DNA of 30,194 nucleotides from a virus. The translations under genes and the position numbers were made by a program. How positions within the stretch are numbered: position 1 is the first letter of the stretch; each line of letters begins with the position of its first letter. The stretch is taken from positions 1 to 30,194 of IMG/VR virus record IMGVR_UViG_3300042981_000067; one strand, 5' to 3'. The notes below the pieces were generated by a model, which saw only the letters and a list, made by a program, of their open reading frames with translations, did no database searches and was not told where the DNA came from. Below, piece by piece: positions 4,021 to 27,581 of this stretch.

Positions 4021-6911
4021 TGACTTATCAAGGCTACCTAATTGCTAACTTCGACACCGGCTTTGATAGGGAGAGACAGCCTTGGCTCTTACCTGATGAT
4101 GCTCAATTTGAGCTATTCGATGGCTTCGTCTATCGAGGTGTCTGGCAAAAGCGAGAAGGTTATAGTCAATTCGCTACAGGTCAAAGAGGTGGGGCTCCTT
4201 ATTGCGAATCAAGAATGATCCACACCGTGACAGGTTTTGCGACTGTAGGAGCTATAAATAGCAGTAACAGAGTCTTTACGGCAAGCTTGACAGTACCCGT
4301 AAACCAAGCTATTCGCAGAGGGTCTGTAACGGTTGTGGGTACAGTACCCGTTCAATCGTTTACCGATAATGGATTAGGATATTTTGTCCTTCCAGCGATC
4401 AACATCTCTACTATCACACAGGCGAATCCGGCTCAAGTCACTACCACTGTGAATCATGGATTCACCACTGGAGATCAAGTTTTCATATCAGGCGTTTCGG
4501 GAATGACCTCAGTTAATTCCCCTAATCCTTATACGATCACGGTTACCGGATTAAATACATTCACTTTAGATGGATTTGATTCTAGCTCCCTGCCGGCTTA
4601 TGTTTCTGGCGGTACTGTGATTAAATTGATTGGCACAGTGAACTATATGACCGGAGCTGTGTCAATAACCCTTCCAACAGCGCCTACCGCTGGAAGCGTT
4701 ACCGTGACCTATAGCTTGCATCAAGGCTTTCCGGTTATGGGAGTGATGAACTTCTATACCCAACAAAATACGCGCGAGTTGATCGTAGCGGATACCACTT
4801 ATGTTAACCGATATAATTCCGTCACTAATCGACTGGACGATATCTCTCCAGCCGTTCTTCTCTCTGGCGATAAAACAAATTTCATGTCATGGGTCAATTA
4901 CCCTACTCCTCAAAATTTACAAAGACTTCTCTTTGTCAACTTTAAAGATCCTGTTCAACAATATAGCGGCTCTACCGTCACTCCTTACCCGATTTATACA
5001 GCAAGCGTTCAGGTCACGGCAGCGGCTTTTGGAACAGGTGATGGTACACCGGGGCCATACAATTTCACCACACCTGCCAATACTGGAATAGTGCCGGGGA
5101 CGGTCACTATTACGGCAACCGCGCAAGTCGTCACAGATGACCAATTTGGAGTTCTTAAAGGAGATGGAACGGGTACAGTGAACTATCTCACTGGAGCTAT
5201 CTCAGTCACGTTTAACGCAAACGTAGCTGGTGCTAGCGCGATCACTATAACTTATAAGCAGTTAAACACTCCTATAAAGACAGCTCTTCATATCTTTCAA
5301 TTCAAAGATAGATTGGTTGTCGAATACACCATTGAAGGTGTTAGCGACACTCAGTTTGGTCATCGAATTCGTATTTCAGGTACGGGAGCATTCGGAGATG
5401 TTTTTACTCAAGATGCAATAGGTGCAGGGGTAATAGATATACCCGCCGATACCTTTATTTCTTCTTCAGACTTCAATAGAGACGATTTGTTGATCTTCCT
5501 GAAGCAAGAGACCTGGGTGATGAAATACACGCAAAATGACGTGGTTCCGTTCGTTTTAGACCGATTAGATGGAAGCCGTGGATCTGAGGCTCCTTATGGT
5601 ACGATCACATACCTCAATAGAACAAACGCTTTAAGCCCTCTAGGTTTGATTATCACAGACGGGTACTCTGTCGAGAGAGCCGACGATAAAATTCCTGATT
5701 ACTCTTTCAATGAAATAGACTCAGACAACTTCAATTTATGCTTTGCTGGTTCAGTCGATAAAGACCGCGACCATTATCTGATTCACCCTTCAATGGGAGA
5801 AACAAAATCCGACAGGATATTAATTACTAATTACGAAGAAGATAACTATTCGATATACAGAATACCACTTAGTTGCATGGGTAATTACATTGTATCTTTC
5901 GATGTCACTTGGAATGATCTTACTATTTATCAAACTTGGGATGAGATGGCTTCCGTTTATGGAAACTGGAATGCCTTTGCCTTCTCTAAGGGTGCGCCTA
6001 TCTCTATAGGGGGTGGTCATGAAGGTCAAATTGTAAGGCTTAATGATATCGAAACGGAAGATTATCCGGTTCTGATCCGAAATATTACGGTTGTCGATTC
6101 TGAAACCATTCAAGTAACTACCGACTTTCAAAATTTCGAAGTAGGAGACTTTATCGCTTTAGAAGCAATCAGCGGTATGGTCGAGGCTAATAATAAGCAA
6201 TATGAGTTAATTACAGTCGTCTCTCCTTACGTCATGAACCTTAAGGTAGCAGCCGGAGTAGACGCTACAGCGTTTTCAGCTTATATAAATAATGGCGTTG
6301 CCTCTAAGTGTATAGTGTTTGATTGCAAAACTAAGAAGTTTAATCCATTTGCAAATGCAGATAAGAAAGTTAGTTGCGGATGGCTTTACTTCTACGTTTC
6401 GACAGCCGGGACTGATCTGACCGTTAATGAACTTATTGAAGATGCTAGCCAAGCAGATCCTTGCGTATTGAATGTACCGGGACATGGATACACAACTGGG
6501 ACACAAGTATTTGTCAATGGTGTACAGGGGATGGTAGAGCTCAATGGAAACTTCTACTATATCACCGTAATCGACTCAGATAATTTCTCTTTAGATGGAG
6601 TCGATGCTACCGGCTTTACTGCATACAGTTCTGGTGGCTTCACGTCAACACCGCAAAACGCCATACTGCAAGTTAGGTGCATAAGTAATGACACCGAGCA
6701 ATCGACACAAGTTTATCCTTATAATCCAGCTCCTTATCAAGTCAATTTATCTAATCAAGAGAGCGAGAACGGCATAAAGAAATGGTATAAACTTTGGATC
6801 AATCAAACCGCAAGATTCGTGCAATTTCAAGTTATTAATAATCAATCAGGTGCAGTAGTTCAATTGCACGCTATGATGCCGGGATTTGCACCGGTTGGGA
6901 GGTTAATCTAA
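4020..6911 (+). CDS. Large tail protein, nozzle-like, with FCCH-like repeats
   Basis: The start chosen is the ATG at 4020, which overlaps the previous TAA and follows GGAG; an in-frame ATG 24 bases upstream lies inside the neighbour and lacks such a site. The product has 963 residues. The first two thirds hold repeated beta modules: two copies with a GTVNYxTGAxSxT signature and an FCCH-like copy with VNHGFTTGDQVFISGVSGM. The middle (about 430-640) looks like the beta-propeller of a T7 gp12-type nozzle, with FQFKDRLVVEY, FNRDDLLIFLKQETWVMKY and GTITYLNRTNALSPLG. Two more FCCH-like copies follow, one with VPGHGYTTGTQVFVNGVQGM. It probably forms the tail tube end through which DNA exits. Confidence 0.6.
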   Translation: MTYQGYLIANFDTGFDRERQPWLLPDDAQFELFDGFVYRGVWQKREGYSQFATGQRGGAPYCESRMIHTVTGFATVGAINSSNRVFTASLTVPVNQAIRRGSVTVVGTVPVQSFTDNGLGYFVLPAINISTITQANPAQVTTTVNHGFTTGDQVFISGVSGMTSVNSPNPYTITVTGLNTFTLDGFDSSSLPAYVSGGTVIKLIGTVNYMTGAVSITLPTAPTAGSVTVTYSLHQGFPVMGVMNFYTQQNTRELIVADTTYVNRYNSVTNRLDDISPAVLLSGDKTNFMSWVNYPTPQNLQRLLFVNFKDPVQQYSGSTVTPYPIYTASVQVTAAAFGTGDGTPGPYNFTTPANTGIVPGTVTITATAQVVTDDQFGVLKGDGTGTVNYLTGAISVTFNANVAGASAITITYKQLNTPIKTALHIFQFKDRLVVEYTIEGVSDTQFGHRIRISGTGAFGDVFTQDAIGAGVIDIPADTFISSSDFNRDDLLIFLKQETWVMKYTQNDVVPFVLDRLDGSRGSEAPYGTITYLNRTNALSPLGLIITDGYSVERADDKIPDYSFNEIDSDNFNLCFAGSVDKDRDHYLIHPSMGETKSDRILITNYEEDNYSIYRIPLSCMGNYIVSFDVTWNDLTIYQTWDEMASVYGNWNAFAFSKGAPISIGGGHEGQIVRLNDIETEDYPVLIRNITVVDSETIQVTTDFQNFEVGDFIALEAISGMVEANNKQYELITVVSPYVMNLKVAAGVDATAFSAYINNGVASKCIVFDCKTKKFNPFANADKKVSCGWLYFYVSTAGTDLTVNELIEDASQADPCVLNVPGHGYTTGTQVFVNGVQGMVELNGNFYYITVIDSDNFSLDGVDATGFTAYSSGGFTSTPQNAILQVRCISNDTEQSTQVYPYNPAPYQVNLSNQESENGIKKWYKLWINQTARFVQFQVINNQSGAVVQLHAMMPGFAPVGRLI

Positions 6912-16930: not shown

Positions 16931-17102
16931 ATAGAGCCGGTTTTAGTGGGACGGTGATCGTCGGACTAACCGTTGGATCTGTACTCATATTCTCATCTAC
17001 CAGATCGGTAGCGCTTCCATGAGTATCAATATTTGAAAAGCTTAGTGTGCAGCTACTCAGAAGGAGTAACGGGAACACTAGTAATGTCAATAACTTTTTC
17101 AT
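16929..17102 (-). CDS. Small lipoprotein overlapping the recT 3' end
   Basis: A 57-residue frame reads MKKLLTLLVFPLLLLSSC followed by a mature part of about 40 residues (TLSFSNIDTHGSATDLVDEN onward, ending VPLKPAL). The signal peptide with its Leu-Leu-Ser-Ser-Cys end is a lipobox with the acylated Cys at residue 18. The ATG lies inside recT, in another frame, 48 bases before its stop, and follows AAGGAAGTTG inside the recT coding sequence. It is last in the leftward operon, running up to the terminator. Candidates are a superinfection-exclusion lipoprotein or an outer-membrane spanin; no inner-membrane spanin partner is evident nearby. Confidence 0.7.
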   Translation of the reverse strand: MKKLLTLLVFPLLLLSSCTLSFSNIDTHGSATDLVDENMSTDPTVSPTITVPLKPAL

Positions 17103-17907
17103 TCAACTTCCTTTTGTTTTTCCATTTGTTAAATTGATCAGAAGTAACTTTAATGTCGTTTAATAACTTCATTAATGTGTGTACTTTTAACTCTTTATAA
17201 TGAGCATTGATTTCATCAATAAATGTCATAATCAAGGAGTGGTCTGATGGATCGAATTGCTTAAGTAAATCCTGTAACATTTGAGAAATAGCATCTTCTG
17301 TTACTTCGGAATATTGCTTTGGCTCTTCATTAGAAGCCCTAGAATCGCTTATCTCACCTTCGATGTACCCTATGCCTATCACATCGCTAAAAAGCTGTCT
17401 GGCGAGCCGAGAAACGCATCTAGCATAAAGCATATCTTCGGGTGTTCTCTTCCATCCACCTTTCTCTTTTATCAGACCAGCTTTTTGAGCCATTTCGATA
17501 GTGAAAGTGACGGTATGCGTCTCTCCAGTATCAGCCCTCGTACCTTTGATTTTACAAATCTGATCTGTACTTTCTATAATCTGAAGAGTATGCTTAGCAC
17601 GCCGGATCAACGCTGACATCACACGAGCAGATAGTTCCACCTTTCCCTCGATGATATGGAGTCCTCCATTAAGCGCTTGCGCCGGCCCTATTCCATACTC
17701 TCTTGCCGCCAACATAATCATCATGACCGCAGATTCTTTGCCCACACCTCGATACATTTGGCTATCAACCGCGTTCTTTGCCCACGTTTGATAAACCATA
17801 AGCTCTTGAGCACTAGGCATACCAACAACCTGTGTTGCTGTATTTACGTCTTGATGTTTTAAAGCATATACTTCATGTTGTTTTACGGGTATTACCGCAT
17901 TATCCAT
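17053..17907 (-). CDS. recT: RecT-type single-strand annealing protein
   Basis: This 284-residue protein is recognisable by its central block: LAAREYGIGPAQALNGGLHI (about 67-86), then a beta strand with EGKVELSARVMSALIRRA, then GGWKRTPEDMLYARCVSRLA (about 150-169), the last corresponding to the conserved W-x-x-x-P-x-x-M-L-x-A-R region. It would anneal complementary single strands produced by the exonuclease encoded two genes upstream, for recombination or concatemer formation. The C-terminal 90 residues are variable. AAGGAGG precedes the ATG. It overlaps the lipoprotein gene at its 3' end. Confidence 0.85.
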   Translation of the reverse strand: MDNAVIPVKQHEVYALKHQDVNTATQVVGMPSAQELMVYQTWAKNAVDSQMYRGVGKESAVMMIMLAAREYGIGPAQALNGGLHIIEGKVELSARVMSALIRRAKHTLQIIESTDQICKIKGTRADTGETHTVTFTIEMAQKAGLIKEKGGWKRTPEDMLYARCVSRLARQLFSDVIGIGYIEGEISDSRASNEEPKQYSEVTEDAISQMLQDLLKQFDPSDHSLIMTFIDEINAHYKELKVHTLMKLLNDIKVTSDQFNKWKNKRKLNEKVIDITSVPVTPSE

Positions 17908-17916
17908 AAACCTCCT

Positions 17917-18111
17917 TTACCATTCGGTCATTAAACACCAGTTGCATCCTCGACCCCCTCCACACCTAGGGCAAGAATCATCATCATCAGGATCATGATC
18001 ATCGCTATAATCATAATCATAGTCGTCCTCCTCATGTTCGTAGGGAATTTCGCCCCTAAGCATTGCGAAATATTCAGGGTAATCCCAAGGAATTAGATTA
18101 GGATCCCGCAT
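17917..18111 (-). CDS. Acidic mini-protein with CxxC pairs
   Basis: The start is placed at the ATG at 18111, which overlaps the exonuclease TAA (TAATG) and follows GGAGG; a longer frame starting at 18147 has no ribosome binding site. The 64-residue product has a very acidic Asp/Glu/Tyr stretch (HEEDDYDYDYSDDHDPDDDD) followed by CPRCGGGRGCNWC, a zinc-knuckle-like arrangement of four cysteines. It lies between exonuclease and RecT genes, so a role as adaptor or modulator of that pair is possible but only inferred. Confidence 0.65.
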   Translation of the reverse strand: MRDPNLIPWDYPEYFAMLRGEIPYEHEEDDYDYDYSDDHDPDDDDSCPRCGGGRGCNWCLMTEW

Positions 18112-18620
18112 TACTTCCTCCAAAAGTGTTTGAAGATATCTAAACATTTTTTGAAAAGATCAAATTGATCGTCATAGACGTATAGATCCGGTTTCATCCC
18201 ATGCTTATTTAGGTGAAGAAAGTGGATCCCGCGTACGTCGTATCCGTTTTTCCTCGCCATATAAGCATAGGCTGACCCCTGAAGCGGCCAAGTCTTCGAT
18301 GGTTTCGCAGAAGTTTTAAGGTCTAGTATTATGGCTCCTTCTTCGCCTTCAATTATCATGTCAACTTGACCTGTAATCATCAGCTCGGAGCAGTAGAACC
18401 GTTGTTCTAAGGCTAGTACCTTTTTGCCTTCTTCCCACCATTGCTTGAAGCTATGGACGTAGCCGCGAGTTTCATCATCCACGCCCCATTCGCCTAACCC
18501 TTTAACAATACCTTCGCATATGTCATGCACTTTAGTGCCACGCCTAGCAGCGTTCGCTAATATGTCTTTCGGTACTTTGTCGAGTCCGGTGAACGGTGAC
18601 AGGACTTCTGTAACCCTCAT
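18111..18620 (-). CDS. PD-(D/E)XK exonuclease (Cas4/RecB-like) partner of RecT
   Basis: This 169-residue protein has the core of a PD-(D/E)XK nuclease: R27-G-T-K-V-H32 (the conserved His helix), E72 in LEQRF, G84-Q-V-D87, then ILDLKTS at 98-104 (Asp100 and Lys102 as metal and catalytic residues) and the Gln helix QGSAYAYM at 114-121. Such phage nucleases resect DNA 5' to 3' and feed RecT-type annealing proteins. It is short but complete in the core. No clear Shine-Dalgarno precedes its ATG. It is coupled to the CxxC gene by TAATG. Confidence 0.8.
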   Translation of the reverse strand: MRVTEVLSPFTGLDKVPKDILANAARRGTKVHDICEGIVKGLGEWGVDDETRGYVHSFKQWWEEGKKVLALEQRFYCSELMITGQVDMIIEGEEGAIILDLKTSAKPSKTWPLQGSAYAYMARKNGYDVRGIHFLHLNKHGMKPDLYVYDDQFDLFKKCLDIFKHFWRK

Positions 18621-18871: not shown

Positions 18872-18922
18872 CTGGAATTTCAGTGAATGTTCCATTAAAT
18901 TTGAACATACATCATGAGACAA
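18872..18922 (-). promoter_or_regulatory. Leftward promoter with operator-like palindrome
   Basis: On the minus strand TTGTCT (18922-18917), a 17-base spacer and TTTAAT (18899-18894) make a plausible sigma-70 type promoter. The palindrome-like CTGGAATTTCAG at 18872-18883 falls near the expected transcription start. The same palindrome recurs at 26707, 28874 and 28897, so a shared repressor is likely. Confidence 0.45.
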
Positions 18923-18977
18923 ATTTGTGGAAACTTTATTTGGATAACCGACTGGATTTTGTGTATGGAGTTATATA

Positions 18978-19271
18978 ATGGATGTGCAAGTGATTGATTT
19001 TCAAGAGATTAAAAACAGCCCTTGCATAGGCTATGGATTAGTGCGATATGGAGACATGCTGTTTAACATCATGATAATGTATAGGAATAAGACTGGATTG
19101 TTCATTGAATTCCCGAAAGCACGTCGAAAAGATACTTGGGTGCATTGTTCTTGGTTTGGAGAAAAAGATAAGTACGCAGAATTTCAATTAACTGTTATAC
19201 GCCAATTGACTGACAAGTATCCGGATGCGCGCAGGATCATTGACTCAAAATTGAAAAAAGTAGTGCAATAA
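18978..19271 (+). CDS. Small protein, possibly SpoVG-like
   Basis: This 97-residue protein is the first of the rightward replication module. It has a beta strand pattern MLFNIMIMYRNKTGLFIEFP then ARRKDTWVHC and a C-terminal helix with FQLTVIRQLTDKYP. The hydrophobic strand, a G-L-F-I-E-F-P segment and the terminal helix resemble the SpoVG fold, which binds nucleic acid, but identity is uncertain. It is preceded by GGAG. No repeat of function-defining residues can be stated. Confidence 0.5.
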   Translation: MDVQVIDFQEIKNSPCIGYGLVRYGDMLFNIMIMYRNKTGLFIEFPKARRKDTWVHCSWFGEKDKYAEFQLTVIRQLTDKYPDARRIIDSKLKKVVQ

Positions 19272-19282
19272 ATTTTAGTAAG

Positions 19283-19470
19283 TATTATGAAGAAAGAAAC
19301 CCAGCACTAAGGCTGGGTCGCAGGACGTATGTTCTGTAGATGAGATGTAGTCTCAGAAGCAGTGCTCTTAACGATTACCAGTCGTTAGTAAGCAAAATGA
19401 TCACCAAGATCGCTTCTGACTATATCCCCCCTATGAATTTTACGTCCAGTTAAAAAATATATAACTGGAT
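19283..19470 (-). ncRNA. Hairpin-rich intergenic region, possible leftward small RNA
   Basis: No gene fits here. Stems seen: ACCCAGC/GCTGGGT (19299-19318), CAGGAC/GTTCTG (19321-19336), TGAGA/TCTCA (19341-19355), TAACGA/TCGTTA (19369-19387) enclosed by TCAGAAGC/GCTTCTGA (19353-19419), and TCCAGTT/AACTGGA (19445-19469) just before the next gene's ATG. The first hairpin is followed by a T-rich tail (TTCTTTCTT) only on the minus strand, which would suit the terminator of a leftward RNA. Equally, the plus strand could carry these as a structured leader for the gene at 19475. Strand and identity are uncertain. Confidence 0.35.
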
Positions 19471-19474
19471 CGTC

Positions 19475-19789
19475 ATGACCGCTGTTTGTTGTAATCAGTG
19501 CTTCCACACCATAGCCTCGAACGATGCACCAGCTGCTAAGCTGTGGCTTGATCTATGCGCTTATTTTGTTAAGTGGGAAGGTAATTTCAAACTCAGAGAA
19601 AATCGCGTCCCCGGAGTGATTAAACACTTCAGGAACCTTGAAAAGATGGGCTTTATCTCAACTGCGGATGGGCCTGATTCTGTCGTGGTACGCGTTAACG
19701 GTTATGACATTATTTTGGTAGAGGAACAGGAAATGTGCTTGGATACGTTTTGCCTTGATAGAGAGAAGCACCAAAGCGAGTGGCTATAA
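19475..19789 (+). CDS. Small Cys-rich protein, possibly DNA-binding
   Basis: This 104-residue protein begins MTAVCCNQCFHTIASNDAPA, with three cysteines in the first nine residues, then a helical region with LWLDLCAYFVKWEGNFKLRE and a helix-turn-helix-like stretch around PGVIKHFRNLEKMGFIST, followed by a beta hairpin. This order suggests a winged-helix type protein. It lies between two hairpin-rich non-coding stretches. The stem at 19445-19469 ends only 5 bases before the ATG and may affect its translation. No family recognised. Confidence 0.55.
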   Translation: MTAVCCNQCFHTIASNDAPAAKLWLDLCAYFVKWEGNFKLRENRVPGVIKHFRNLEKMGFISTADGPDSVVVRVNGYDIILVEEQEMCLDTFCLDREKHQSEWL

Positions 19790-19917
19790 AACACAACGGG
19801 CCACCATGAGGTGACCCGCTAAACTAACGAACTGTGATGGCGAATCGCTCGTAACACAGTTCACTAAGATAAACCTAGTCTACATAACGACGAATTATGT
19901 AGCAAGCTAAAGGACAT
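19785..19917 (-). ncRNA. Second hairpin-rich region, possible leftward small RNA
   Basis: Three stems are seen: CGGGCCACC/GGTGACCCG (19797-19818), GAACTGTG/CACAGTTC (19829-19862) and CTACATAA/TTATGTAG (19880-19902, 8 bp, loop CGACGAA). In the first stem one position is C-A on the plus strand but U-G on the minus strand, so it pairs fully only in leftward RNA, where it is followed by TTGTGTTTTA, a weak terminator tail. This parallels the region at 19283-19470. It may instead be a leader of the replication gene at 19919. Confidence 0.35.
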
Positions 19918-19918
19918 T

Positions 19919-20782
19919 ATGGACGCAAATTCTATTCGATGTGTGAGAGCTCCTAGAGATTCACAACACCCTTACTTCATGACAGCCCGCGCTGTTGCTC
20001 AAGATACTAACCTCAGTTTAGATGAACGCGGATTATTATGGTACATTTTAAGTCTTCCTGATGATTGGGTCGCTCATCCTATGCAGCTTGGAAAAGTTAA
20101 CGGCATCAAAAGTAAAACAAAGATTTACGGTGTTTTCAAGCGATTGATGCAAGCCGGGTATTGCGAAAGGAAGGATATACGCAAAGATGGAAGACATGAA
20201 ACCACTATCTACATGTTTTATGAAGATAAGCAACAGAGACTAATTGAGTTATACAAAGATAAACCTGAAGAAGAGCAGCTTCCTAAAAAACAGGAACCTG
20301 AATTACAGGATCCTAAAAAACAGGATCCTGAAAAACAGGACACTACAGATAATATATCTATACAGAAGAAGAAGAAGAAGAGGAACGCTTCGCTTCCTTC
20401 AATCGAATTCGATTATGAAACCAACGAGTTCGTCAACATCGACGAAGACGATGTTCTTTCTTGGATTGATCTTTATCCCGGCGTAGATATTAAGCGCGAA
20501 CTTCGCTTGATGCGTCAATGGCTCATGGATCCCAAAAATCCAGAGCGGGACGGCAATCGAACTTTCATCACAAACTGGCTGAATAAATCCTTCAAGGATG
20601 TAAAGAAATCCCCTAAGAAGCCAGTTACAGCCGGTTCAAACTCTGAAGCCGATGTTATTCCGTTCAACGCTGATATTGCACAAACCTACCGAGACGAGAG
20701 CGAAGAGGCCTATGTTGCATACCTTCAAAGAATTACCGACAAAAAACACTATCAAGAATATCTGAAATCTAAGGGACTGTAA
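19919..20782 (+). CDS. Phage replication initiator-like protein (lambda O type layout)
   Basis: This 287-residue protein starts after AAAGGA. Residues about 15-100 form a helix-turn-helix domain of replication initiator type (LSLDERGLLWYILSLPDDW, then KTKIYGVFKRLMQAGYCERK). A Lys/Glu/Gln linker with the repeat KKQEPELQDPKKQDPEKQD follows, then a basic cluster QKKKKKRN. The C-terminal domain (about 150-215) with LMRQWLMDPKNPERDGNRTF is the type that recruits a helicase. Downstream is the helicase, coupled by TAATG. The linker is encoded by four 15-bp iterons, so the gene may carry the replication origin. Confidence 0.65.
   Translation: MDANSIRCVRAPRDSQHPYFMTARAVAQDTNLSLDERGLLWYILSLPDDWVAHPMQLGKVNGIKSKTKIYGVFKRLMQAGYCERKDIRKDGRHETTIYMFYEDKQQRLIELYKDKPEEEQLPKKQEPELQDPKKQDPEKQDTTDNISIQKKKKKRNASLPSIEFDYETNEFVNIDEDDVLSWIDLYPGVDIKRELRLMRQWLMDPKNPERDGNRTFITNWLNKSFKDVKKSPKKPVTAGSNSEADVIPFNADIAQTYRDESEEAYVAYLQRITDKKHYQEYLKSKGL
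20280..20380 (+). repeat. Four 15-bp iterons plus AT-rich tract, candidate origin
   Basis: Four contiguous 15-base units occur at 20280-20294, 20295-20309, 20310-20324 and 20325-20339: TTCCTAAAAAACAGG, AACCTGAATTACAGG, ATCCTAAAAAACAGG, ATCCTGAAAAACAGG. The last has internal dyad symmetry (CCTG-AAAAA-CAGG). An AT-rich stretch (GATAATATATCTATA) and a purine-rich GAA repeat follow. Iterons inside the initiator gene followed by AT-rich DNA is the layout of the lambda origin. They also encode the Pro/Lys/Gln linker, so a purely protein-level repeat remains possible. Confidence 0.55.
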
Positions 20783-22233
20783 TGCAACACTTTACTAGAG
20801 AATCATTGGACGAAAATGGACGAGTTTTTTTATGTGATCGAGGTCTTAGTATTCCGGTCGCACAGCAGATGGGAGTCGCAAGTGCTAATGGAGCTATAAG
20901 CTTTCCTTACATTTTCAACGGCGAACTGGTGCGCGTGAAATACCGCAATATGGAAGATAAAAAGAAGATGTGGTTTAGCCAACTCAAGGAAGAAGAGAAG
21001 GGTAGTTTTAAGATGCCCTTCTGGAACCAACGTATTTGGCCTACAAGCGATTATCTTATCATAACCGAGGGTGAGTTCGATGCGATTGCGATAGCTCAAC
21101 TGGGAGCCCCGCAAGTGGTTTCCTTGCCAAACGGCGCAGCTAGTGTGGTGACTACCTTCAAGAATCACTACGATTACCTGCAAAGTTTCAGTGAAATCTT
21201 CATTGCTTTCGATATGGACGAGGCAGGGGAGAAGGCAGTCGAAGAGGCTAAGAAATTAATCTCTCCTAAGAAGTTTAGGCGCATCATGTTCCCGGCAAAG
21301 GATGCTAATGACTGGGTACGCGAGAATGCACACATCGAGAAAGCAGACCTTCAAGACTTAATGCGCAATGCAGCGCGTATTTGTGTTGATGAGATCGTTC
21401 ACTTCCGTGACTTGCCCGAAACGTATTACCATGCAAGGGACAAGGGAATTCCAACAGGATGGAAAGATCTTGATGACTTGATAGGCGGGATCCGACCCAA
21501 AGAGATGACGGTTATCTCAGCCGATACCGGTGCAGGTAAGACAACATTTTCAGTGAATCTTCTATGCAATTTGATCAAGAAACACAATTCAGGTTTTTGG
21601 ATCAATAGCTGGGAGATGGACTATGAAGTTATCATCCGAAAAGTCGCTAGTGTAGTGCTAGGTTCTAAGTTCAAGACGCAGGCCTTCACCAATGAGCAGA
21701 TCACGGCTTTCAAAGCATGGATGCAAAAGCACAATGCAATGATCAATCCTAAGCGCTCTAAGGCCGATATCCCGACGCTCCATAAGCAGATCGAGCTTGC
21801 TTCGAAGGTCTACGGCGTCAAGTACGTACTCTTGGATCACCTTGACTACATTAGCGCCACGTCGAAAGAGAAAGAAGGTCACGAAAAGATCAAGGATGCC
21901 GTCGTAGCTATTCACGATATGGCTATGGAGTTTGATGTTCATATCCTGTTGATAGCGCATCCTAAGCAGTTAGATGACGGATCAGGCAAGATGCACATGG
22001 GTCAGCTGAAGGGGAGTGCCGCTATCAAGCAATACGCCGATAACATCCTGTTATTGCAAAACATGGCTCAAGCAGATCTCGCTACGCCTGATAATCGCAT
22101 GAAGGTTCTTATCCCTAAGAACAGATTCTTCGGAACTAAAGGCGAAGTGACGCTCAGGTATATTCCTGAGAGCGATAGCTATATTGATAATTCACAAATA
22201 TTTTCACCAAGGAGAGGGTATGAAGAAGGTTAA
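20782..22233 (+). CDS. TOPRIM-DnaB type replicative helicase (Twinkle/T7 gp4-like)
   Basis: This 483-residue protein has a TOPRIM domain with ITEGEFDAIAIAQ (94-106) and FDMDEAGEKA (143-152), then a RecA-like helicase domain with Walker A ADTGAGKTT (247-255), Walker B-like YVLLDHLDYI (349-358) and the C-terminal region with AHPKQLDDG and LKGSAAIKQYADNILLL. The N-terminal zinc-binding domain of full primases is absent, so it may unwind without making primers, or primers may be made by another protein. It follows the initiator gene with TAATG coupling, consistent with helicase loading by its neighbour. Confidence 0.88.
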   Translation: MQHFTRESLDENGRVFLCDRGLSIPVAQQMGVASANGAISFPYIFNGELVRVKYRNMEDKKKMWFSQLKEEEKGSFKMPFWNQRIWPTSDYLIITEGEFDAIAIAQLGAPQVVSLPNGAASVVTTFKNHYDYLQSFSEIFIAFDMDEAGEKAVEEAKKLISPKKFRRIMFPAKDANDWVRENAHIEKADLQDLMRNAARICVDEIVHFRDLPETYYHARDKGIPTGWKDLDDLIGGIRPKEMTVISADTGAGKTTFSVNLLCNLIKKHNSGFWINSWEMDYEVIIRKVASVVLGSKFKTQAFTNEQITAFKAWMQKHNAMINPKRSKADIPTLHKQIELASKVYGVKYVLLDHLDYISATSKEKEGHEKIKDAVVAIHDMAMEFDVHILLIAHPKQLDDGSGKMHMGQLKGSAAIKQYADNILLLQNMAQADLATPDNRMKVLIPKNRFFGTKGEVTLRYIPESDSYIDNSQIFSPRRGYEEG

Positions 22234-23375: not shown

Positions 23376-24070
23376 AATCAATTCTCTTTGGAAACGTCAG
23401 GGATGGTACTTCGACGAAAAGGAGAAGAAGGAGTGTCTTTGACGCTTCACGCCAAAAGTTTAGACAGTCGTTCATCGAGGGGGACTATGCTTGCCCTGAG
23501 TTCGGTTCCATAAACCGATGGATGATCGACGAAAAAGTTGACGGTACTAACGTTCGGATTTTTTGGGAGCCAAACGACCAGTTTTCCCCTAATTACGGCG
23601 GCCGGACAGATAACGCGCAGATGCCAACCTCTTTGCTTCAACACCTCCAACATACTTTCACCCGCGAAAAGCTTCAAAAGCAGTTTCCCGATGCCCGGAA
23701 GGTCATTCTTTTCGGTGAAGGGTACGGCCCAAAGATCCAAGCTTGCGGTAGTAGGTATCGAAAAGATGTGTCCTTCATCCTCTTCGATGTCTGGATTGAC
23801 GGATGGTGGCTCGAAAAGGAAAGTGTATTGGAGATTGCCAGTGCACTTGATATTGAACACACCATTAATCAACGGATTATGACAACCGCTGAGGTTGTTG
23901 AATTCGTAAAATCTAAGCCCAAGAGCTATATCGCCGAAGATAGGGAGCTGGTCATGGAGGGAGTAATAGCGCGAAGCGTCCCGCTTATGCTCTTCCGTAA
24001 TCACAAGACTCCTATCATGTTCAAGTTAAAGGTTAGGGACTTCCCAGATATTAACGAGGATGCAGCTTAA
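23362..24070 (+). CDS. RNA ligase expressed through a +1 frameshift
   Basis: Frame 1 starts at ATG 23362 after GGAGG, reads MEYPKINSLWKRQGWYFDEK and ends at TGA 23440 after 26 codons. The continuation is in the +1 frame from 23441 (DASRQKFRQSFIEGDYACPE onward) to 24070, giving about 235 residues. It is a PF09414-type RNA ligase. Motif I is K58-V-D-G (lysine to be adenylylated), with FGEGYG near 117-122, ILFDVW near 139-144, EGVIAR near 199-204 and FKLKVRDF near 220-227. The +1-frame sequence has no ATG, GTG or TTG before motif I, and the N-terminal YPKI...L..R is typical of the family. The crossing point has the prfB programmed-frameshift geometry. It would seal RNA nicks, for example in cleaved host tRNA. 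Confidence 0.8.
23428..23443 (+). promoter_or_regulatory. prfB-like programmed +1 frameshift site
   Basis: Sequence AAGGAG-TGT-CTT-TGA-C: an SD-like hexamer (23428-23433), three bases, the slippery CTT codon (23437-23439) and TGA followed by C. Bacterial prfB uses AGGGGG-TAT-CTT-TGA-C with the same spacing to shift +1 when release factor 2 is scarce. Here the shift joins the two halves of the RNA ligase. Confidence 0.7.
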
Positions 24071-24534: not shown

Positions 24535-25106
24535 GTGCTGCCGAAGAGGTCATAAATCAGATAACTAATAGATTGTATGATAATCTATTAGGACAAGAAA
24601 AAGAAATCATAGAGTTTGTTAAAAACGCTTCTATAGTAACTAAAGAAAGATTAGTAAAAGACAATATATTGAAGAAAACAAATAAATTTATTGAGGCTTT
24701 GAATAATGAGTTCAAAGATGTTAAATTTATTTGTAAATGGTCTTTTGGTACTTCAATGTTAAATCATGAGATGCACCGATATGATTCAGATCTTTATAAT
24801 CAGGAGTATTTAGAAGAAGAGGATGATTTTTACTCTGACCCTGATATTGACTATTTTTATGAAACCGCCCTTACAGATCTTACTATTAAAATAGAATACT
24901 ACTGGGAAAGAATTTGTTCTTTAGGATGTAAACATAGAACTAAAAGATTTATGATTATGAATATCCCCAAACTTATTGATTTTATAGAGTATATTCATAT
25001 AGGAATGCCGGCACGAACTTTTGTTAAAGAGTTCATACCGGATTTCTTTTATGATCCTACGCAGCCCCCAAAGAAACGAGGCCGTCCAAAATCTTCTCGT
25101 AGTTAA
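24516..25106 (+). CDS. AT-rich gene for a protein with a C-terminal AT-hook
   Basis: The ATG at 24516 follows GGGAGG; an upstream TTG in the same frame is less likely. The 196-residue product is helical with an acidic middle (LEEEDDFYSDPDIDYFYETA) and ends PPKKRGRPKSSRS, matching the AT-hook core (R-G-R-P-K), which binds the minor groove of AT-rich DNA. Base composition is clearly more AT-rich than the neighbours, suggesting separate acquisition. Its last 50 bases overlap the convergent serine recombinase gene, and the AT-hook is encoded within that overlap. Function unknown. Confidence 0.55.
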   Translation: MADARLGAAEEVINQITNRLYDNLLGQEKEIIEFVKNASIVTKERLVKDNILKKTNKFIEALNNEFKDVKFICKWSFGTSMLNHEMHRYDSDLYNQEYLEEEDDFYSDPDIDYFYETALTDLTIKIEYYWERICSLGCKHRTKRFMIMNIPKLIDFIEYIHIGMPARTFVKEFIPDFFYDPTQPPKKRGRPKSSRS

Positions 25107-25779
25107 TATAGACTCTGGACGTAGCTCCGTGCGTCCAGATCCCTCCATCGCGATTTCGTAAGCCTTCATCATTAAGCTTGTCGGCAATGTCCCGAAAGCT
25201 TAAATCTTGGTGCATGCGATAGGTATACATCTTCTTGAGTATCTTGGCCTCATCTGGATGCGTTTCTAGCAAGCCATCGCCGTTTAAACGCTGACCATAT
25301 GGAATGCGTCCAACGCGCTCACCTCTCGCCTTCTTGCGCGATAGGGCTGCCTTTGTGCGCGTGGATATAACCAACGCTTCATAGTGGGCAAATAGATCCA
25401 TGATGCCCCTAAGTAAAACGTTATGCGGTTCGTCGCCCTCCATTTCACCTATTGCAGAAACAAGTTTCGCTTTTTTCTTTTCTATGATACGCTCAATCAT
25501 GCCCATAATATAAGTGTCTCGCGCAAGTCGTTCCCTCTTATGAACGATGAGCACATCGCCTTTTGTCAATAGGGAAAGAGCTTCTAGCAGTTTAGGACGC
25601 TCTTCTAGCTCTTTCCTTTTTCTATCTGTCCCGGTCACAATGTCAATAAACTCAGTGACTTCACCGCCTCCAAGTTTCTCGATCCATTGCATACAGGCAT
25701 GACGCTGAGCTTCTAGGCCTAATCCAGAGTCTTCTTGCTTATCTGTAGAGACCCTTAGATATATAAAATACCGCATCAT
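25057..25779 (-). CDS. Serine recombinase (resolvase/invertase family)
   Basis: This 240-residue protein has the catalytic domain of serine recombinases: YLRVSTDKQ (7-15) with nucleophile Ser11 and Arg9, and LIVHKRERLARD (77-88) with Arg84 and Arg87, followed by the long E helix region. The C-terminus (about 150-240) holds GRIPYGQRL, SFRDIADKLNDEG and NRDGGIWTHGATSRVYIN, which is part of the Recombinase DNA-binding domain. It is much shorter than large serine integrases. It could catalyse integration, inversion or resolution; no attachment site is visible. ATGA coupling links it to the upstream membrane protein. Confidence 0.85.
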   Translation of the reverse strand: MMRYFIYLRVSTDKQEDSGLGLEAQRHACMQWIEKLGGGEVTEFIDIVTGTDRKRKELEERPKLLEALSLLTKGDVLIVHKRERLARDTYIMGMIERIIEKKKAKLVSAIGEMEGDEPHNVLLRGIMDLFAHYEALVISTRTKAALSRKKARGERVGRIPYGQRLNGDGLLETHPDEAKILKKMYTYRMHQDLSFRDIADKLNDEGLRNRDGGIWTHGATSRVYINYEKILDGLVSLGAA

Positions 25780-27353: not shown

Positions 27354-27581
27354 TTAAGGAGGCATTAAGTCCTTTGGTGACACTCCTAACGCTCTAGCTA
27401 TGCTTATTATCTTTTCTAGTCCTACGCTTCTTTTTCCTCTCTCTACTGAACTGATATAAGTCGGGTGTAAATGTGCTTTCTCAGCTAATTGCTCTTGCGA
27501 CATATCAGCTTGATAACGCAACATCCGAACCGTTAATCCAAATGTTTTCTTGATAGAATGTTTATTTTTAGGTATCGTCAT
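27354..27581 (-). CDS. XRE (Cro/CI type) helix-turn-helix repressor
   Basis: This 75-residue single-domain protein has VRMLRYQADMSQEQLAEKAH followed by PTYISSVERGKRSVGLEKII and ARALGVSPKDLM, the classical five-helix XRE DNA-binding domain. It is the obvious candidate for control of the early operons. The word GTATCGTC occurs at its own start codon and twice nearby, as possible autoregulatory sites. No dimerisation domain is present, so it acts as a short Cro-like or C-protein-like regulator. Confidence 0.85.
   Translation of the reverse strand: MTIPKNKHSIKKTFGLTVRMLRYQADMSQEQLAEKAHLHPTYISSVERGKRSVGLEKIISIARALGVSPKDLMPP

Follow-up and report, generated by a model that had tools for sequence, protein, structure and literature searches.

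The replication initiator gene of an uncultivated phage very probably harbours the phage's origin of replication. In the window, by which we mean the whole stretch of 30,194 nucleotides that was analysed, four contiguous 15-bp repeats (20281-20340) lie inside this gene (19919-20782, + strand) and are adjoined by an AT-rich stretch. Array and stretch together most plausibly constitute a theta-type origin, with the near-palindromic repeats serving as iterons for the winged-helix domain of the initiator itself. In the mechanism that we envisage, this domain would bind the four near-palindromes located just downstream of it, the adjoining AT-rich stretch would open once initiator molecules occupy the array, and the C-terminal domain would recruit the primase-helicase that the following gene encodes. 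An origin within an initiator gene is in itself a known layout, with precedents in phage lambda and in certain plasmids; what may be new is the fixation of the repeat pitch within initiator families and the conserved AT-rich elements that accompany the arrays. Sequence data alone could in this way point to a likely replication origin in a phage that has not been cultivated, with comparative tests that go beyond mere resemblance.

The array was found as given in a preliminary description of this DNA, which had reported four contiguous 15-bp units, and it is the sole array of this kind in the 30 kb. All four iterons were read on the + strand: iterons 1 (20281-20295) and 3 (20311-20325) share the sequence TCCTAAAAAACAGGA, iteron 2 (20296-20310) reads ACCTGAATTACAGGA and iteron 4 (20326-20340) reads TCCTGAAAAACAGGA. 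Dyad symmetry had been attributed to the last unit, and it is indeed perfect only there; however, every unit is a near-dyad of the form TCCTG-N5-CAGGA, with 4, 4, 4 and 5 of the 5 arm pairs formed in iterons 1 to 4, respectively. Tandem Repeats Finder returned it as the top array in the window (period 15, 4.0 copies, score 85). In a self-match over 45 bases the array scored 36/45, compared to values that always stayed below 33/45 elsewhere in the 30 kb and to a maximum of 30 in dinucleotide shuffles of the window, so that it exceeded 100 of 100 shuffles. The dyads were scored with a scan fitted to the observed spacer, and hence post hoc, after a general scan with a preset arm geometry had failed to detect them in the window. 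Downstream of the iterons, both of the previously described features are present, AT-rich DNA (20341-20363, + strand) and a purine tract of the form (AGA)n (20364-20385, + strand), which is lysine-rich in the protein. The AT-richness, however, is only moderate, amounting to 70% over 20341-20380 versus 59% for the gene and ranking in the top 9% of the gene. We presume the AT-rich stretch to be an unwinding element, as suggested by its composition, its position next to the iterons and a degenerate match to the CACTACTAAGTACTAATAA element of related genes. GC skew, which had been proposed as a check around 20.3 kb, follows gene direction and thus carries no information on the origin.

The gene encodes a protein of 287 residues, and its earlier assignment as the likely initiator is borne out by profile matches, by its modelled fold and by the primase-helicase gene directly downstream. 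The protein matches the PHROG replication initiation families 4707, 428 and 270; over the N-terminal domain and the linker, the matches to 4707 (E 4e-13) and 428 (E 1.7e-9) place it among replication initiation proteins. An AlphaFold2 model, built from an alignment of two sequences, predicts an N-terminal winged-helix DNA-binding domain (residues 1-111; 19919-20251, + strand; with block pLDDT values mostly between 67 and 84 for residues 21-100), followed by a linker whose residues 123-158 have pLDDT values below 50, as expected for disorder, and by a C-terminal helical domain (about residues 162-230; 20402-20608, + strand; helices at 176-230), which presumably recruits the helicase. The repeats fall into the linker between these two domains, in agreement with the initial proposal, and the origin would code for a disordered segment that can tolerate a sequence set by DNA function. 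A Foldseek search with the model gave no match at E<=0.001, but winged-helix replication proteins, namely RctB domain 1 and the DnaB primosome N-terminal domain, appeared near the top (best E 4.7e-3), and the winged-helix assignment is supported by the model together with these weak matches. By profile search, the protein is a member of neither the lambda O nor the RepA_N family: among Pfam families up to E 0.1 none of the O type matched the window initiator, none of its 11 PHROG hits was O-like, and the RepA_N Pfam domain was absent up to E 0.1 in the window and up to E 1 in its relatives L002 and L003. The best Pfam match, HTH_36, remained below the curated cut-off (14.4 versus 25 bits; 17.9 bits for L002), and the L002 and L003 initiators match phrog_678, annotated as O-like, at 1e-4 and 1e-6, respectively. 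The array lies upstream of the helicase gene, as had been stated, with the primase-helicase (20782-22233, + strand) starting in overlap with the initiator stop. This partner combines a TOPRIM primase with a DnaB-type helicase in one polypeptide (Pfam DnaB_C 6e-27, Toprim_2 1e-12; phrog_239 6e-98), as in the T7 gp4-like primase-helicases. Despite the T7 gp4-like helicase, a DNA polymerase of family A was found neither in the window nor in the L002 and L003 contigs, records that may be incomplete.

Several characterised systems share this gene organisation. In lambda and the Stx phages, the central part of the initiator gene contains iterons, four in the former and six in the latter, together with an AT-rich tract (PMC7466680). 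The original comparison with the lambda origin holds for this layout, since the window likewise carries putative iterons and moderately AT-rich DNA within its initiator gene, but it does not extend to the proteins: lambda uses O, the loader P and host DnaB, whereas the gene next to the window initiator encodes the fused TOPRIM-DnaB primase-helicase, the initiator has no O or RepA_N profile match, and no P-like loader was identified. The SPP1 initiator, encoded by gene 38, binds direct repeats within its own gene at oriL, which has an AT-rich unwinding element (PMC6316719); it differs from the window in having a separate loader (gp39) and a separate helicase (gp40), as well as oriR as a second origin. 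The replisome organisers of the lactococcal phages Tuc2009 (Rep2009) and TP901-1 (ORF13) bind direct-repeat-rich regions in their cognate genes, which constitute the origin (PMC8965321), a likeness to the window that concerns layout only, and in the RepA_N plasmid pSK41 the Rep boxes are central in rep and code for a linker (PMC5703833). It is by analogy with lambda and Stx O, SPP1, Tuc2009 and TP901-1, and pSK41 that we infer binding, melting, helicase recruitment and origin activity for the window.

Alternatively, the repeats bound by the initiator could represent an autoregulatory operator or a copy-number or incompatibility site, with the origin located elsewhere. Operators, too, typically include near-palindromic arrays. 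In addition, SPP1 provides a case of a second origin outside the initiator gene (PMC6316719). However, the array is situated about 360 bp inside the gene, away from a promoter position, an AT-rich stretch lies on its 3' side, at the place of the AT-rich element conserved among related genes, and characterised in-gene arrays with such a layout are origins (PMC7466680, PMC8965321, PMC5703833). We therefore regard an operator with a remote origin as quite unlikely. As end repeats are absent from the record and its relatives measure about 40 kb, parts of the genome may be missing, and a second origin, as in SPP1, is possible in addition to the one proposed here.

For the proposed origin, the window alone is ambiguous as to whether the repeats matter as DNA or as protein, because 15 bp correspond to five codons. 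The repeats encode Q-x-P-x-K pentapeptides, and it is conceivable that these form a flexible charged linker that was expanded by slippage, with the DNA playing no role; both the five-codon period and the modelled disorder of the linker are in line with this explanation. Codon shuffles that keep the protein argue against it when codons are drawn from the gene-wide pool (p=0.005 for the tandem repeat, p=0.003 for the dyads), but fail to reject it for the window alone when they are drawn from the linker-only pool, which is filled by the repeat itself (p=0.095 and p=0.26, respectively). Taken alone, the window thus makes a suggestive case for the DNA level, and it is the relatives that decide. The viral scans yielded only three contigs as relatives, representing two lineages, namely L002 and the pair L003/L004 with an identical gene. 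We searched these for protein repeats that are conserved while the DNA repeats have diverged, and found the opposite in L002 and L003. The L002 initiator is 61% identical to that of the window, and 83% in the DNA-binding domain; at the DNA level, the two match through domain and iterons and are more diverged behind them. In the region of dyad 1, 22 of 25 bases are identical (AGCAGCTTCC...AAAACAGGAACC), yet the codon phase differs (1 in the window versus 0 in L002), with the DNA reading EQLPKKQEP in the former and SSFPENRNQ in the latter, where the out-of-frame dyad is flanked by compensating indels. Dyad 4 is kept in frame, iteron 4 having one mismatch to L002 positions 6402-6416, and the two middle dyads are not kept; L002 hence retains two of the four dyads, and it lacks the pentapeptide repeat. 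This out-of-frame conservation, the codon shuffles and the occurrence of periods that are no multiples of three (22 bp in L003 and its family, 14 or 16 bp in other relatives) indicate that selection probably acts on the DNA, not on the encoded linker. The same observations have largely refuted an expanded protein repeat, which we consider very unlikely. The overlap of coding and origin functions that had been proposed for this gene is supported by the DNA-level conservation, the origin function being assigned by analogy.

The comparison with L003 bears on the origin from another side. The L003 helicase is 90% identical to that of the window and the C-terminal initiator domain 74%, but the N-terminal domain of its initiator is unrelated (phrog_11233, E 2e-25). 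Behind this domain follow TCCCGAAATCGGGA, TCCCTAAACCGGGA and again TCCCGAAATCGGGA at 22-bp spacing, comprising three TCCCG-like dyads, two of which are perfect (codon-shuffle p about 0.003-0.005); the 22-bp period, being no multiple of three, yields no protein repeat. The confidence of an AlphaFold2 model of the single L003 initiator sequence was too low for it to be used (mean pLDDT 41). The DNA of window and L003 aligns over 18900-19833 (78%) and again from 20364 (82%), the first base of the purine tract, with no alignment in between; the unaligned window segment (19833-20364) consists of the leader, the DNA-binding domain, the iterons and the AT-rich stretch. As the alignment breaks only between these two points, domain and iterons appear to have been replaced as one segment, whose boundaries are given as alignment ends and may differ slightly from the real breakpoints in either direction. 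The comparison shows a putative recognition site and its recogniser exchanged together as one cassette between close relatives. The closest parallel is the hybrid plasmid pPR9, in which a block of ~500 bp with the N-terminal domain and the origin has given way to one that is similar to a phage protein (HTH_36-type), the C-terminal domain being retained (PMC5703833). Window and L003 follow the same logic, but pSK41 and pPR9 are plasmids with a C-terminal domain that contacts DnaG primase, and they differ from the window in their RepA_N affiliation. Within the C-terminal domain and the helicase, at window positions 20580-20780, homology to L002 weakens, whereas L003 stays close to the window, marking a second mosaic junction. 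Overall, the window looks like a mosaic of segments with different relatives.

We surveyed the pitch of such arrays in initiator genes that encode one of the two domain types, taken from phages and plasmids in GenBank and from IMG/VR. The best 80 matches per scan, with a closer subset of sequences used for the profile scan of the window-type family, were reduced to 126 non-redundant genes, 65 of the window type (family 1) and 61 of the L003 type (family 2), and the 180 nt after the DNA-binding domain were scanned in each. The best linker period in family 1 was 15 in 44/65 genes and 14-16, 30 or 32 in 60/65; in family 2 it was 22 in 39/61 and 21 in a further 5/61 (21-22 in 44/61). These counts are descriptive, as other repeats in the AT-rich linkers contribute to the best period, sampling was limited to the top 80 matches of each scan, and related genes are not independent. 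Conservation of synonymous positions in relatives had been suggested as a check; in the codon-shuffle test, which is conservative where the period divides by three, p<=0.05 was reached by 26/65 family 1 and 37/61 family 2 linkers, compared to 0/65 and 0/61 for control regions inside the domains of the same genes. While the repeat sequences vary widely between phages, the pitch is maintained, and over many phages and plasmids that are unrelated to each other it goes with the family of the DNA-binding domain of the initiator itself. Flavobacterium phage elemoE resembles the window in that its initiator gene directly precedes that of a TOPRIM primase/helicase; its in-gene array has a 22-bp pitch, and the DNA-binding domain is that of L003-type initiators rather than of the window type. 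That another factor binds the array, for instance a recombination protein or a repressor from host or phage, is most improbable given this coupling of pitch to the initiator domain and the joint replacement of domain and array in L003, even though the window encodes a Cro/CI-type regulator (27354-27581, - strand) and recombination genes.

The arrays of both families, which we interpret as iterons of in-gene origins, are followed on their 3' side by a conserved AT-rich element. In family 1, CACTACTAAGTACTAATAA-like DNA lies 3' of the 15-bp arrays, with CTACTAA present in 42/65 genes, and in family 2, CCTATACCAGATA lies 3' of the 22-bp arrays, with TATACCA in 42/61. Within 12.8 kb of linkers there are 27 occurrences of the string ACTAAGTACT, and 0 in 239 kb elsewhere; for CCTATACCAGAT there are 23 in 12.2 kb of linkers and one in 201 kb elsewhere. 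Where the peptide is kept, codon choice is nearly invariant: leucine is encoded by CTA in 36/37 cases in the AT-rich element, compared to 17% elsewhere in the same genes, and isoleucine by ATA in 30/30 cases in the CCTATACCAGATA element, compared to 38% elsewhere. The reading frame of the element is mostly constant and a protein role is possible, but the codon fixation points to a role as DNA. In the window, the family 1 element is present only in a degenerate form, CACTACAGATAATA. Elements of the CCTATACCAGATA type were seen in L041-L120 and L035-L040, and those of the CACTACTAAGTACTAATAA type in L121-L200 and in GenBank relatives. The reverse complement of the CACTACTAAGTACTAATAA element contains TAGTAG, which, as we assume, recalls DnaA-trio motifs. 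The element strings were found in no paper of the open literature library, providing weak evidence of novelty.

Based on these results, we tentatively suggest, with confidence falling a little short of even, that winged-helix initiators carry a transferable cassette. It would comprise the domain, iterons at a family-fixed pitch (15 or 22 bp) and the AT-rich element of the family (CACTACTAAGTACTAATAA or CCTATACCAGATA), conserved as DNA across phages of unrelated hosts, with the element acting as a strand-opening or single-strand loading signal and a swap of the cassette changing origin specificity. Such a swap would account for the way in which compatibility with relatives could arise in phages or plasmids. 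For other phages with initiators of this kind, a simple rule follows for placing origins, according to which repeats with a pitch of 15 or 22 bp are to be sought directly behind the winged-helix domain, and the AT-rich element beyond them. If this element is truly the strand-opening signal, melting of such origins becomes directly testable.

Concerning the biology of the phage, scans of genome contigs for the helicase and the DNA-binding domain gave no relatives, and accordingly no prophage host was found. An integrase-type serine recombinase (25057-25779, - strand; phrog_95) and the Cro/CI-type regulator are suggestive of a temperate phage. Beside the replication genes, a recombination module with a RecT-like annealing protein and an exonuclease is encoded on the opposite strand (17053-17907 and 18111-18620, both - strand). 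Downstream of the primase-helicase, a 182-residue protein (23522-24070, + strand) is conserved in L002 and L003 and begins with DEKVDGTNVRIF, which we take to resemble the nucleotidyltransferase motif of RNA and DNA ligases.
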